Assembly: GCA_027494055.1 (NCBI GenBank)
Contig: JAOSJO010000024.1
Location: 186,001 to 250,000 of the forward strand
Direction of reading: 5' to 3'
Length of the DNA stretch: 64,000 bases
Origin: Anaerolineae bacterium
GTDB lineage: Bacteria > Chloroflexota > Anaerolineae > Aggregatilineales > JAFGMM01
Shown here: positions 2,963 through 10,782 of the stretch, in pieces
Position numbering within the stretch: position 1 is the stretch's first letter
Layout of the letters: each line of letters opens with the position of its first letter
Position numbers and translations under genes: made by a program
Notes under the pieces: model-generated
The model's input: only the letters and a program-made list of their open reading frames with translations
What the model was told of the DNA's origin: nothing
The model's database searches: none

Positions 2963-3667
2963 TTGCGGTGGAGACGCTTCCAGGCCATCTCCGCGCTCGC
3001 CGGGTTGTCGCCAGACTGCCTGGAGCGCCTCGCCCAGGTCATGGTCCGGCGTGAGGTGGCTGCCGGGGAGATCATCTTCCTGGAGGGGAACCCCGCGCAC
3101 GGTATCTGGTTCATCGCGAAGGGGCGGGTCCGGATCATCCGGCACTCGACCAGCGGGCGCATCCAGGCGATGTGCATGGCGAGCGCCGGCAAGTGCTTCG
3201 GCGGCTGCCCCCTGTTTGACGGCGAGATCAACCCCGCCAGCGCGCAGGCGGTGGACGACGTGACGCTGCTCATCCTGCCCGCCGCCGAATCGCAGCGGCT
3301 CACCCGCACCGACCCGCATCTGGCGCGCGTGCTGTTGACCGTCCTCAGCCAGCGCCTTGCCCATCTCGCCCGGTTGAGCGAGGGCCTGGGCACGCAGACG
3401 GTCGCCTGCCGCATTGTGGATTGCCTCCTTGCCTACGCCGATCACGCCCAGAGTCCGCCGGTCGTGCTGTTGACGCATGACAAGCTGGCAATTCTGGCGG
3501 GCACCACGCGCGAGGTGGTGAGCCGTCACCTCGCCCGCCTGGAGGCGAATGGTCTGGTCCGCCTGGGGCAGGGTCGGGTGGTGTTGCTCGAAATCGAAGC
3601 GCTCTCAGCCTCCCGGCCGATGGACGCGGCGTGCGTGGCGGCGCAGATCCGGCGCGCACGCGAGTGA
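2963..3667 (+). CDS. Crp/Fnr-family transcriptional regulator 1
   Basis: About 234 residues. It has an N-terminal cyclic-nucleotide-binding-like beta-barrel (about 20-125), a long dimer helix and a C-terminal winged helix (about 160-215). The recognition helix contains R-E-x-x-S-R, combining the Arg/Glu/Arg pattern of Crp with the ExxSR pattern of Fnr and Dnr. This fits recognition of TGTGA/TTGAT-like half-sites. There is no N-terminal cysteine cluster for an oxygen-sensing 4Fe-4S centre; three cysteines near the end of the barrel are of unclear meaning. The start is uncertain: the frame opens at TTG 2963, while a better ATG at 2956 is in another frame. It lies immediately upstream of a paralogue and the nar regulon, which suggests respiratory or nitrogen-oxide control. 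Confidence 0.85.
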   Translation: MRWRRFQAISALAGLSPDCLERLAQVMVRREVAAGEIIFLEGNPAHGIWFIAKGRVRIIRHSTSGRIQAMCMASAGKCFGGCPLFDGEINPASAQAVDDVTLLILPAAESQRLTRTDPHLARVLLTVLSQRLAHLARLSEGLGTQTVACRIVDCLLAYADHAQSPPVVLLTHDKLAILAGTTREVVSRHLARLEANGLVRLGQGRVVLLEIEALSASRPMDAACVAAQIRRARE

Positions 3668-3701
3668 GTCGCGCCGGGGGCTGTGCATCCCCGCGCCCTG
3701 A

Positions 3702-3744
3702 TGTGACCTGGGTCACACGACGGCTGCGCGATGTGTGCTATGCT
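3702..3744 (+). promoter_or_regulatory. Crp/Fnr-type box and -10 upstream of regulator 2 (site A)
   Basis: TGTGACCTGGGTCACA at 3702-3717 is a perfect TGTGAC/GTCACA palindrome. A -10-like TATGCT at 3739-3744 is centred 32 bp downstream of the palindrome centre, placing the box near -41.5 (class II activation geometry). It implies control of regulator 2 by itself or by its paralogue. Confidence 0.75.
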
Positions 3745-3775
3745 TCTGGCGTCTTCGTATTGCGGAGAGGGCCGT

Positions 3776-4468
3776 GTGCGTGTAACGCTCGAAACGCTTG
3801 CGGAGGTGGCTGCGCTCCATGGGCTTGCTCCCCAAACTCTGGAGCGCGTCGCGCAGTCTGCGACGCTGCTGGCCTGCGCTCCCGGCGACGCCTTCTATCA
3901 ACAGGGCGACCCACCGGCGGGGTTCTTTGCCCTGCAGACCGGTCGCGTGAAGCTGTACCGGCATTCCGGGGAGAAGGCGCAGATTCTCGCCATTCTGCTC
4001 CCCGGCGATTGCTTCGGCGCGGAGTCGCTCCCGGACGACGCGCCCTGCCCCTGGACCGCCGAGGCGATGGAAACCTCGACCGCGATCTACCTCGCGCCCG
4101 ACCGGCTGCGCCAGCTCATGGCGGTGTGCCCCGATTTGCAGGTGGCCCTGCTGGAACTCGTGTCGAGCCGGTTGCGGCAATTTGTGACGCTGGTCCATGA
4201 CCTGGCCTTCCGCGATGTCGCCGCCCGGCTTGCGGCGGTCTTGCTGGCGCGCGTCGAGGCGGAGGGTACCGTGACGGCAGCCGGCGTGCAGATCCGCCGC
4301 GCGTTCTCGCAGCAGGAAGTCGCGGCGATGGTGGGCACAGCGCGCGAGGTGGTCTACCGCACGTTCAGGCAGTTCGAGCGCGACGGCCTGCTGAAGCTCT
4401 CCCGCTCGCACATCCTGATCCTCGACATGGCGCGACTCGCCGAGGTTGCCCGGCGCGAGACGCGCTGA
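3776..4468 (+). CDS. Crp/Fnr-family transcriptional regulator 2
   Basis: About 230 residues. It has an effector-binding beta-barrel (about 10-115) with a PGDCFG turn, a dimerisation helix and a winged helix whose recognition helix reads AREVVYR, again the R-E-x-x-x-R pattern that reads TGTGA half-sites in Crp. GTG 3776 is chosen as start because GGAGAGG lies 5 bases upstream; the frame is open further up to 3731, but this would overlap the -10 element. There is no Fe-S cysteine cluster, so sensing through heme or a small ligand is possible but not shown. It sits between its own box and the next copy of the box, and is the best candidate activator of the four-promoter regulon. Confidence 0.87.
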   Translation: MRVTLETLAEVAALHGLAPQTLERVAQSATLLACAPGDAFYQQGDPPAGFFALQTGRVKLYRHSGEKAQILAILLPGDCFGAESLPDDAPCPWTAEAMETSTAIYLAPDRLRQLMAVCPDLQVALLELVSSRLRQFVTLVHDLAFRDVAARLAAVLLARVEAEGTVTAAGVQIRRAFSQQEVAAMVGTAREVVYRTFRQFERDGLLKLSRSHILILDMARLAEVARRETR

Positions 4469-4489
4469 TCTGCCCTTTTCCCCGCTTGA

Positions 4490-4532
4490 TGTGACTTGAG
4501 CTACATACGGTCATCCCCTTTTAGACTACCGT
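4490..4532 (+). promoter_or_regulatory. Crp/Fnr-type box upstream of rhodanese gene (site B)
   Basis: TGTGACTTGAGCTACA at 4490-4505 matches sites A and D with an imperfect right arm. TACCGT at 4527-4532 occupies the -10 position found 32 bp from the box centre in the other copies. The sequence just before the box (CTTTTCCCC) is also shared with sites C and D. Confidence 0.6.
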
Positions 4533-4679
4533 GATTGCGGGCGCATCATGCATTCTTTTGTTATGATCGCTATATCAGATAGGGGGAGAAAGGAGGGCGA
4601 TTACTATTACCACAGCGTGCCAAATTTCACAAAGGCGGTTTTACGTCCAACCTATCCTGATGATCGGGAGAGTGCGGAT

Positions 4680-5069
4680 ATGGCGAAGACCTTCAGTCAA
4701 ATGGTGGCAGAGGCGATGGCCGAAGTACCAGTCATTAGCCCGGAGGAAGCCCATCGACGGATGCAACAAGATCCGAGGACGCTTGTGATCGATCCGCGCG
4801 ATGCGGCAGACATTCCTGTCACGGGCATCATTCCAGGAGCGATGAACATATCCTACGGTGCGCTGACCTACAGGGCGGACAGTGAGCTTCCCCCAGATTG
4901 GCGCGAGCCGGAACTCGATGACCGCTCCCGCCCCATCATCACGGCCTGCCAAACCGGGGAGCTGGGGGCGCTGGCCGGAAAGCTCCTGAAAGATATGGGC
5001 TTTACAAACGTCTCGATTCTTGAGGGCGGTACCCAGGCCTGGAAAGATGCGGGGTTCCCGACCCAATAA
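4680..5069 (+). CDS. Single-domain rhodanese-like protein
   Basis: A 129-residue cytoplasmic rhodanese-fold protein, the type used for sulfur transfer or persulfide handling. The active-site loop ACQTGELGAL contains Cys90, and the usual GG-x-x-AW motif lies near the end (EGGTQAWKDAG). ATG 4680 is favoured because the homology starts there; upstream in-frame ATGs at 4548 and 4563 would add an unrelated stretch and lie in the predicted promoter/leader region. It is transcribed from the site-B promoter and followed by a structured repeat also found after the next gene. Co-regulation with nitrate reductase suggests sulfur supply to molybdenum cofactor or response to nitrogen-oxide damage, but this is inference. 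Confidence 0.82.
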   Translation: MAKTFSQMVAEAMAEVPVISPEEAHRRMQQDPRTLVIDPRDAADIPVTGIIPGAMNISYGALTYRADSELPPDWREPELDDRSRPIITACQTGELGALAGKLLKDMGFTNVSILEGGTQAWKDAGFPTQ

Positions 5070-5101
5070 ACGACGAGGAAGGCAAGCCGACGTCTGACGA
5101 C

Positions 5102-5206
5102 CTGGCCGGATTCGGCGATCTCCCGTGCGCCGCGCTTCTACGGAAGGCCCTGCCTACCAGAGCGCGGCGCACCGCTTTCCACAACGAAAGGCAGACAAGT
5201 CAGAGG
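5102..5206 (+). repeat. 105-bp structured intergenic repeat, copy 1
   Basis: Aligns without gaps to 6056-6160 with 9 differences in 105 bases. It contains a perfect 12-bp stem (5125-5136 with 5161-5172) around a 24-base loop, then a CTTTC/GAAAG hairpin with a 6-base loop. Differences fall in the loops and flanks, not in either stem. No T-tract follows. It is downstream of the rhodanese gene and just upstream of box C. It may be a 3' RNA element, a protein-binding site or part of a duplicated promoter module. Confidence 0.85.
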
Positions 5207-5233
5207 ATCCCCGCGCACGCTTTCCCCACTCAA

Positions 5234-5277
5234 CGTGACTTAAGCTACATCCTATTCCTTCTATTTCATGCTACTTT
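5234..5277 (+). promoter_or_regulatory. Crp/Fnr-type box upstream of secreted unknown protein (site C)
   Basis: CGTGACTTAAGCTACA at 5234-5249 is a degenerate copy of the box. TACTTT at 5272-5277 is the -10-like element, centred 33 bp from the box centre and identical to the hexamer used at site D. The leader before ATG 5453 would be about 165 bases and has no recognised riboswitch. Confidence 0.6.
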
Positions 5278-5452
5278 GTTGGTATGAATCATCGCATATT
5301 GGCGCCCCGCTCTCCAATGTTCCCAGGTGCAACACGATCAGATATCAGATGCGGTGACGCTGGAGGAGGGTTCTGCGATTTGTAAGACTGAATTCCTTCA
5401 GTAATAGACCAATGAATGGAAAAAACTGTTCTTGAAGAAAGGATGCCACGTC

Positions 5453-6028
5453 ATGCTGTTCATGAGAACCCTCAAGCTAGGGCTGGTTATCGTTGTCGCT
5501 GGCTTGACAGTAGCGATGGTCACTGCCCAGGATGATGCGGAGACCCAGGCCAAGATTGAAAGTGCGATGAGTGCGGCCCCAATGACGATCGCTCAAGACG
5601 CGACAATTCTGGATTGGGCGTTCGATGCAGACGGGAAATTCATCGTCCTGCGAGAAGGCACGAATGGCTGGAGTTGTCTGCCGGACGATACTGGAACGTC
5701 TATCGACGATCCCATGTGCCACGACGAGATGTTCATGGAGTGGCTTTATGCCCTCATCGCCGGGGAAGAGCCGAACATCACCGCTCCAGGGTTTTCTTAC
5801 GTGCTTCAGGGTGGTGAGGCCTTGAGTAATAGTGACCCCAGCGCATCGGAGCCAGCAGAGGATTATTGGGTATCGTCCTCTCCTTACATGATGTTCGTTC
5901 TGCCTCCCGAGGTGGACCTAAGCGAGCTCAGCACCGACGGCAGCTCCGATGGCCCCTTTGTCATGTATGCAGGTACTCCCTACCAACATATCATGGTGCC
6001 GGTGGGGGACGAAGAGCGCGACGAGTAA
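5453..6028 (+). CDS. Secreted protein of unknown function
   Basis: 191 residues. A hydrophobic signal peptide (about 1-25, ending AMVTAQ) is followed by an acidic domain rich in Trp, Met and Asp, with a conserved-looking centre (LREGTNGWSCLPDD, then MCHDEMFMEWLYA) containing two cysteines (about 74 and 88). Start ATG 5453 follows GAAAGGA at 5437-5443; a TTG at 5432 is less likely. No known domain is recognised. It has its own Crp/Fnr-type promoter, and the 105-bp repeat follows it. It therefore appears co-regulated with nitrate reductase and may act outside the membrane in anaerobic or nitrogen-oxide metabolism; no specific function is claimed. The gene is intact. Confidence 0.8.
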   Translation: MLFMRTLKLGLVIVVAGLTVAMVTAQDDAETQAKIESAMSAAPMTIAQDATILDWAFDADGKFIVLREGTNGWSCLPDDTGTSIDDPMCHDEMFMEWLYALIAGEEPNITAPGFSYVLQGGEALSNSDPSASEPAEDYWVSSSPYMMFVLPPEVDLSELSTDGSSDGPFVMYAGTPYQHIMVPVGDEERDE

Positions 6029-6055
6029 ACGCGCCCGACTTCAGACCAGTGACAT

Positions 6056-6160
6056 CTGGCCGGATTCGGTGATCTCCCGTGCGCCGCGCTTCCGCGGAAG
6101 GCCCTGTCTGCGAGAGCGCGGCGCACCGCTTTCTGCAACGAAAGGCAGATAAGTCAGAGG
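6056..6160 (+). repeat. 105-bp structured intergenic repeat, copy 2
   Basis: Second copy of the element at 5102-5206. The 12-bp stem (6079-6090 with 6115-6126) and the CTTTC/GAAAG hairpin are unchanged. The 24-base loop differs at several positions. It lies between the secreted-protein gene and the nar promoter. Confidence 0.85.
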
Positions 6161-6197
6161 CACCCGCGCAACACAAAATCCTCATGTCCTTTTCCCA

Positions 6198-6245
6198 CAG
6201 AATGTGACTTGAGTCACATTCTGTCCTCCCGTTTCAAGCTACTTT
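6198..6245 (+). promoter_or_regulatory. Crp/Fnr-type box and -10 of the nar operon (site D)
   Basis: TGTGACTTGAGTCACA at 6203-6218 lies within a longer perfect inverted repeat with 12-bp arms (6198-6209 and 6212-6223) around two central bases. TACTTT at 6240-6245 is centred 32 bp from the box centre, again a class II arrangement. It is the strongest of the four boxes and drives the nitrate reductase operon. Confidence 0.78.
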
Positions 6246-6307
6246 ATCGGTAAAAGTAATCGTAATCTGGCGGTGTATCGCCCTGTTGCCATGCTTGGAG
6301 GCGCGTG

Positions 6308-7163
6308 ATGCGTTTCATCCCTGGATGGTGGTTATCAACTGTGCTTGTGTTAGCCCTGCTCTCCGCTGGCCTGATGCTGGGGAGGGGCGCGCTTTGCGCG
6401 CCCGCCAGCGCAAGAGGGCGCGGAAGGGGAGGGCGCGACGTTGTTCCAGGAGAAGTGCGCCGGGTGCCACACGATTGGCGGCGGGGACCGGGTCGGGCCG
6501 GACATGGAAGGCGTGACCGCGCTCCGCGACCGCGACTGGCTGGTGCGCTTCATCGTGGAGCCGGACCGGGTCATTGCCGAGGGCGACCCGATTGCCGCCG
6601 CGCTGCTTGAGCAGTTCGGCATGCCGATGCCCAACCTGGGCCTGACAGAAGCGCAGGCGGACGCCATTGTCGTGTATCTGGAGGCGCAGGCCGGGGACGC
6701 TCCCGCGCCGCCGCCGGAGCCGCCCGTTTCTGTAACCGCGCCCACAGGCGACCCGGACATCGGGCGCGACCTGTTCAGCGGCGCGAGCCGGCTGGCGAAC
6801 GGCGGCGCGGCGTGCATCGCCTGCCACGACATCGCCGGCGTCGGCGCGCTCGGCGGCGGGGCGCTGGGGCCGGACCTGACGCAGACCCATGCGAAGTTTG
6901 GCGCAGACGGCACAGCGGCCATGCTCGCAAACCTTTCGTTCCCGACCATGATCCCCATCTTCGGCACGCGCCCGCTCACGCCGGAGGAGCAGGCGCACCT
7001 GGCCGCGCTCTTTCAGCAGACCGCCGAGGTCGGGCCGCCCGCCCAGCCGGTGGGCCAACTGGCGCTGGCGGCTGCTGCTGGCGCGGCGCTCCTGTTTGGC
7101 GTGATGCACCTTCTCTGGCGGCGCAGGCTCACCGCTGTCCGCCGGCCACTGGTGAAAGGATAG
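6308..7163 (+). CDS. Membrane-anchored diheme cytochrome c (NarC-like), frameshifted
   Basis: First gene of the nar operon, about 285 residues. An N-terminal signal/anchor (from ATG 6308, preceded by GGAGG) is followed by two cytochrome c domains with heme-binding CAGCH and CIACH motifs, a Pro-rich linker between them, and a C-terminal TM segment with basic residues after it. The reading frame must change near 6410-6420, in a GC-rich stretch, to join signal peptide and heme domains. In Thermus a diheme cytochrome (NarC) is encoded at the head of the nar operon and couples NarGHI to the periplasmic side; the same role is inferred here. An alternative is an electron donor for an outward-facing enzyme. 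Confidence 0.85.
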
Positions 7164-7168
7164 TTCGC

Positions 7169-10782
<3,614 letters not shown>

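Follow-up and report, generated by a model that had tools for sequence, protein, structure and literature searches.

Results

Organization of the locus

The window, i.e., the whole stretch of 64,000 nucleotides that was analysed, corresponds to C24:186001-250000 of a 5.7-Mb genome (28 contigs, 86% complete). Two genes of Crp/Fnr-type regulators are followed by a Crp-type box (P1), a rhodanese-domain gene, a first copy (e1) of a 105-bp element, a second box (P2), a 198-aa ORF and the second copy of the element (e2). Downstream of e2 come a third box (P3), a cytochrome c gene and a gene encoding a nitrate-reductase-alpha-type molybdopterin oxidoreductase (Table 1). For the 198-aa ORF, an ATG near position 5453 is a likelier start than that of the longest frame. 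A signal-peptide-like start near 6308 is not in frame with the cytochrome c reading frame (6441-7163), and a stop codon stands between the two (window 6305-6441); this G+C-rich stretch contains either a frameshift or an error of assembly.

Table 1. Coordinates of the genes, promoter boxes and element copies within the window.
Feature	Position	Strand	Characteristics
Crp/Fnr-type regulator genes (two)	2963-3667 and 3731-4468	+	Longest frames; PF00027 and PF13545 in each
Box of second regulator gene	3701-3718	+	ATGTGACCTGGGTCACAC; 5′ of the second regulator gene
P1 box	4489-4506	+	ATGTGACTTGAGCTACAT; 5′ of the rhodanese gene
Rhodanese-domain gene	4548-5069	+	PF00581 (E 7e-17); 5′ of copy 1
Copy 1 (e1)	5102-5206	+	Starts 32 nt past the rhodanese stop codon; from sequence and fold
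e1, 12-bp stem	5125-5136/5161-5172	+	
e1, CTTTC/GAAAG hairpin	5175-5179/5186-5190	+	
P2 box	5233-5250	+	ACGTGACTTAAGCTACAT; degenerate; 5′ of the 198-aa ORF; -10 TACTTT at 5272-5277
198-aa ORF	5432-6028	+	Longest frame; no Pfam match, family unknown; 5′ of copy 2
Copy 2 (e2)	6056-6160	+	Starts 27 nt past the stop codon of the 198-aa ORF
e2, 12-bp stem	6079-6090/6115-6126	+	
P3 box	6202-6219	+	ATGTGACTTGAGTCACAT; 5′ of cytochrome c/narG; -10 TACTTT at 6240-6245
Cytochrome c and nitrate-reductase-alpha-type molybdopterin oxidoreductase	6441-9946	+	PF00034 and PF00384; served by P3

The rhodanese gene (GC 56%, GC3 62%) and the 198-aa ORF have a GC3 of 62-66%, compared to 83-94% in four measured neighbours; from this low GC3, both were probably acquired. 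Orthologues of the ORF were found in seven of 150 relatives and a rhodanese gene in 17 (E ≤ 1e-10). Eight named loci carry orthologues of the ORF, five of them titled Anaerolineae MAGs, one "Chloroflexi" and two "Proteobacteria". The two genes co-occur in several relatives and are adjacent in one of them (G111, contig C30). Neither of them nor narG was found in G001, the only other genome of the same family among those searched. G130 (L044 6001-7077, same as L033/L040) has two tandem copies of the 198-aa ORF, joined in a single frame of 391 codons; in G144, only its C-terminal end was found, at two places (L039, L042). The long leader of another orthologous ORF (L043 5780-5885) contains a palindromic repeat-like stretch (GTAGGGGCGGA...TTCGCCCCTGCA), and some gene ends of L080 and L081 bear GGGGC-rich palindromes resembling it.

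Paralogous Crp-type promoters

The boxes are TGTGA-N6-TCACA-like, degenerate at P2 and perfect at P3. Assuming that the TANNNT hexamer is the -10 element and that its last base is -7, counts made by hand on the sequence give a box centre of -41.5 for four boxes (3701, 4489, 6202 and a further copy on contig C4) and of -42.5 for one (5233); the spacing from box to TACTTT at P2 and P3 was likewise counted by hand. Centres near -41.5 correspond to the arrangement of class II Crp/Fnr promoters. Relative to the starts inferred in this way, the 3′ edge of the element lies near -78 for P2 and near -92 for P3. The transcript of the downstream gene would therefore not include the element, which belongs to the 3′ region of the gene before it.

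P2 and P3 are identical at 61 of 85 aligned columns, and P1 aligns with each of them, the three scores exceeding those of all 300 shuffles. With the C4 copy included, the pairwise promoter scores range from 46 to 116, above every one of 200-300 shuffles. The homology between the two places thus extends past the 105 bp of the element to the downstream promoters. The initial annotation had associated the element with these promoters, and both are indeed paralogous at the two places; a box does follow each copy, although at a distance of 26 and 41 nt and not immediately next to it.

The C4 copy (C4:30284; L052 1401-1700) is the one additional box of the genome accompanied by a matching promoter, and it is devoid of the element. 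The sequence on its 5′ side is similar to the end of the second regulator gene that precedes P1, and that on its 3′ side to the cytochrome c/nar leader. A transposase-like frame lies near this nar promoter copy. From its sequence, it is possibly a relic of an older gene order, which suggests that the regulator gene, the promoter and nar may once have adjoined each other and that the two genes of lower G+C, rhodanese and ORF, would have been inserted later. In total, three further promoters of this genome that have this kind of box (3701, 4489 and C4:30284) lack the element on their 5′ side.

Sequence and predicted structure of the two copies

The two copies, 954 bp apart, align without gaps with 96 of 105 positions identical (BLAST E 4e-37 within the genome, far above chance), exactly the coordinates and counts first given for them. 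The nine differences affect element positions 15, 38, 39, 52, 55, 57, 79, 80 and 95, and eight of them are transitions. Realignment also confirmed that a perfect 12-bp stem (element positions 24-35/60-71; 13 bp if a G-U pair is counted) and the CTTTC/GAAAG hairpin (74-78/85-89) are unchanged in both copies. The stem begins 55 nt (e1) and 50 nt (e2) past the stop codon and encloses a loop of 22-24 nt. As initially noted, no T-tract follows either copy: the ten bases after the stem hold three T in e1 and four in e2, and a scan of positions 4400-6500 found no terminator-like site. In the frame of the first base of the element, the differences are spread alike over codon positions 1, 2 and 3 (hand count), so that the element has no coding signature; the frames overlapping it are short ones and the tail ends of unrelated frames.

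The + strand of each copy has a folding energy below those of all 200 dinucleotide shuffles (z of -2.77 and -3.38), and several helices of the minimum-energy folds are closed by CTG/CAG. The predicted apical and 3′ structures are unlike between the copies. In e2, an apical extension gives 20-nt arms that are 85% complementary; it has a further 6-bp apical helix (CGCGGA/TCTGCG), four of whose six pairs, read by hand, are broken in e1; the differences therefore do strike one predicted helix. The probability that nine differences spare the 12-bp stem is 0.087, or 0.025 for the stem and the CTTTC/GAAAG hairpin together (hypergeometric, post hoc), which is weak evidence because the stems were picked after looking. 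The statistics for the initial proposal of selection on structure are thus weak (P 0.02-0.09), and two sequences leave no room for covariation.

Divergence is lower in the element than in the accompanying promoter (9/105 differing positions compared to 24/85 between P2 and P3, a gap column counting as a difference; P 0.0005), and the contrast persists for the sites outside the two hairpins (9/71 versus 24/85; Fisher P 0.019). Therefore, either the element copies are younger, through gene conversion, or they are constrained beyond the stem; on this sequence comparison, we favour gene conversion or a later copying of the element. The flank 5′ of the copies (19/28 matching; 38/300 shuffles score as high), the leaders at 4572 and 5342 (44/300) and the gene bodies (140/300) do not show significant similarity. 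A duplication of whole promoter-gene-hairpin units was considered and is thus without support beyond the promoter and the element.

Search for further copies

Neither BLAST nor a covariance model built from the two copies revealed a third full-length copy in the genome. The covariance model gave two further weak matches: one is e2 itself read on the opposite strand, and the other, a partial one, falls within an open frame on contig C22. Among 150 relatives, BLAST (E ≤ 1) returned short matches only (at most 52 bp on re-alignment of those fetched). Covariance searches covering more than 40 genomes used stricter filters by which weak matches were lost: under these conditions, 154 genomes of the order gave no convincing match, and 396 genomes of the class gave one match at E ≤ 0.001 outside the genome itself (L103). 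In two other genomes of the order, the matches at E ≤ 0.01 lie inside open frames. The L103 match (27.8 bits, E 9e-4 for one genome among 396), the only intergenic one in the class, is a TTTTTT-tailed hairpin starting 28 nt past the end of a 490-aa frame. It is probably an ordinary terminator, like the element in kind, and common descent is not clear. Weak matches in L059, L060, L061, L003 and L004 are located inside long open frames (judged on frames only), and an exact 14-base match to e2 in L033/L040/L042/L044 falls in a downstream gene region about 470 bp past the ORF; all were attributed to chance.

The genomes that carry an orthologue of the 198-aa ORF or a rhodanese gene yielded no copy of the element (BLAST and covariance model). 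Nothing relevant was obtained from Rfam 15 up to E 10, and nothing in the window reached the gathering score. The element was not found in phages and plasmids, nor was an exact 30-base pattern from it, the one pattern tried, in IMG/VR. No paper on this element was found in the literature, as far as its accessible part goes. The covariance search recommended at the outset, in this genome and in relatives, thus gave no convincing further copy and only the two sequences to compare, which largely amounts to the outcome named at the outset as refuting. Since no third copy was found, and since the C4:30284 promoter lacks the element, the ideas of a module spreading to other box-controlled genes and of a covarying structure are unsupported.

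Hairpins at gene ends

To place the element among the hairpins of its genome, the best ungapped stem was scored within 130 bases past stop codons having at least 130 bases before the next call. The sample (448,470 bases, 354 genes called, coding fraction 68%) amounts to about 8% of the genome and is not random, having been taken on contig C1 and in the surroundings of earlier matches. Genes were called by a home-made caller based on codon usage, which missed some genes including the rhodanese gene and the 198-aa ORF; e1 and e2 are therefore not among the 145 tails. Hairpins of score ≥ 30 were found in 18 of 145 tails compared to one of 165 stretches before genes, and in 2/290 shuffled tails, 4/330 shuffled upstream stretches and 2/302 coding stretches. 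This threshold was picked after seeing the scores, and the contrast between tails and shuffles holds at 24, 28, 30 and 33.

For 13 of these 18 hairpins, the ten bases that follow hold fewer than five T; five have at least five and one at least six. The mean is 3.06 T for an expected 1.88. The usual strong gene-end hairpin of this genome is thus T-poor and G+C-rich, with a slight T excess. The initial annotation had concluded from the missing T-tract that the element is not a simple terminator; since T-poor hairpins are usual at gene ends here, this absence is no ground to reject a terminator. The stem of the element scores 34.5, equalled or exceeded in 10 of 145 tails, and its loop is longer than usual (among the 18 strong hairpins of tails, a single one reaches a loop length of 15). 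The element possesses the G+C stem-loop of a canonical intrinsic terminator and lacks the T-tract directly after the stem. It also has what characterizes U-poor gene-end hairpins, a strong stem less than about 80 nt past the stop codon, in a genome where this class is enriched.

In relatives, after dropping the matches whose frame ran off the contig, a clear hairpin was seen in seven of 20 tails (four of 11 for the rhodanese gene and three of nine for the ORF; judged by eye, not blind), the others having no clear hairpin or running into the next gene. An unrelated hairpin of about 9 bp closes the rhodanese gene in L085 and L090; a GTGAC-N4-GTCAC box follows shortly after it, beyond which L090 has a 161-aa frame. 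The rhodanese tails of L084 and L091 carry a hairpin with TTTTTT and a long hairpin without T-tract, respectively, both again unrelated to the element. Among the ORF tails, the hairpins of L034 and L047, unrelated as well, are T-less and that of L038 is partly T-rich.

Discussion

The element looks like an ordinary gene-end hairpin that was duplicated locally, not like a new RNA family. What was observed is its sequence, its position, its propensity to fold, the enrichment of such hairpins at gene ends and the paralogy of the promoters; from these we infer that it terminates or stabilises transcripts, and in which order the parts were copied. We consider it reasonably probable that the element is a T-poor gene-end hairpin, acting as a terminator or as a protector of RNA 3′ ends, which insulates consecutive Crp-controlled genes and was copied locally. 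Each copy would belong to the 3′ untranslated part of a transcript that contains a single gene. There, the hairpin could help RNA polymerase to stop, or could mark or protect the RNA 3′ end after Rho-dependent termination, and would keep one Crp-controlled transcript (rhodanese gene or 198-aa ORF) apart from the Crp-type promoter that follows. Local copying of an intergenic block comprising the hairpin and the promoter, or later gene conversion of the hairpin part, may have produced the pair. The location of both copies 27-32 nt past a stop codon, in the sense direction, is in favour of this interpretation, as are the enrichment of strong, mostly T-poor hairpins in gene tails, the position of the element with respect to the inferred start of the next transcript, the unrelated hairpins in tails of relatives and the presence of a rho gene. 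Against it stand the loop, long for the strong tail hairpins of this genome, the conservation beyond the stem, which is not required of a plain terminator, and the low proportion of relatives' tails with a clear hairpin (7/20).

The main rival, which we regard as rather unlikely, is that a hairpin devoid of any role was carried passively in the duplicated block, the Crp-type promoter being the functional part and gene conversion maintaining the likeness. The paralogy of the P1, P2, P3 and C4 promoters, the conservation of the sequence between the hairpins and the existence of two copies only, close to each other, are all consistent with a passive copy. However, the accompanying promoter has diverged more than the element, the P1 and C4 promoters exist without the element, and strong hairpins are enriched at precisely this position in the genome sample. 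The folding energies, lower than those of all shuffles, and the recurrent CTG/CAG closing of helices could also evoke a regulatory RNA, either a small RNA derived from the 3′ untranslated region or a multi-branch structured RNA, but this is quite improbable given the lack of any relevant Rfam match and of any relative outside the genome, and an alignment of two sequences whose predicted apical and 3′ structures differ.

That the element stands 5′ of two paralogous promoters would also fit a DNA site (activator, silencer or insulator) acting on them from about -80 to -195; its absence 5′ of the 3701, 4489 and C4:30284 promoters, which have the same kind of box, makes such a role hardly probable. 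A palindrome after each of two consecutive low-G+C genes recalls a cassette array, and hence a mobile palindrome (REP or MITE) or a recombination site of the integron attC type. In an attC site, the palindrome would be bounded by the core sites RYYYAAC and GTTRRRY; neither copy is spanned by a pair of these, and an isolated ACTCAAC at the edge of the P2 box is outside the element. With, in addition, only two copies in 5.7 Mb, no target-site repeats at the ends (by eye) and none of the occurrences sought in phages, plasmids and IMG/VR, a mobile origin appears extremely unlikely. Finally, it is very doubtful that a 3′ untranslated element was recruited twice in a Crp-controlled, nitrate-linked array for more than ending transcripts and kept alike by gene conversion; it might then, for example, yield a small RNA released upon induction of the array.

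The significance of a locally copied gene-end hairpin is small. It should nevertheless be emphasized that, in this lineage, the lack of a T-tract is no reason against a gene-end hairpin, and that local copying of a block made of a promoter and a gene-end hairpin can give rise, next to a nitrate-reductase operon, to distinct units of one gene each that are co-regulated.

Comparison with known systems

The likeness to class II Crp/Fnr promoters (a TGTGAC-N4-GTCACA-like box around -41.5 and a TANNNT -10 hexamer, in four of five examples) belongs to the neighbour of the element and not to the element itself. With REP sequences and MITEs, the element shares its nature of extragenic repeated palindrome, but it is present in two copies close together and conserved throughout its 105 bp, instead of many dispersed copies.

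Hairpins followed by few U are described at transcript ends of GC-rich Streptomyces, including the "HS-U-lack" ends of Streptomyces clavuligerus, for which an optimal loop of 4-8 nt is cited (PMC8269248, in the part available), and poly-U was not required in 13 genomes according to the accessible part of PMC8355165. In cyanobacteria, the part of PMC13289151 available argues that U-poor 3′ ends mostly do not result from intrinsic termination, which by analogy would count against termination by the element. With the U-poor ("I-shaped") terminators of GC-rich bacteria and HS-U-lack ends, as presented in these extracts, the element shares a strong G+C stem soon after the stop codon and the lack of a T-rich tail. 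It differs from HS-U-lack ends by its longer loop and its two near-identical copies. With the U-poor hairpins that stabilise RNA 3′ ends after Rho action in Escherichia coli, as summarized in the introduction of PMC13289151, it shares a G+C hairpin without a strong U-tract, and a rho gene is present in this genome.
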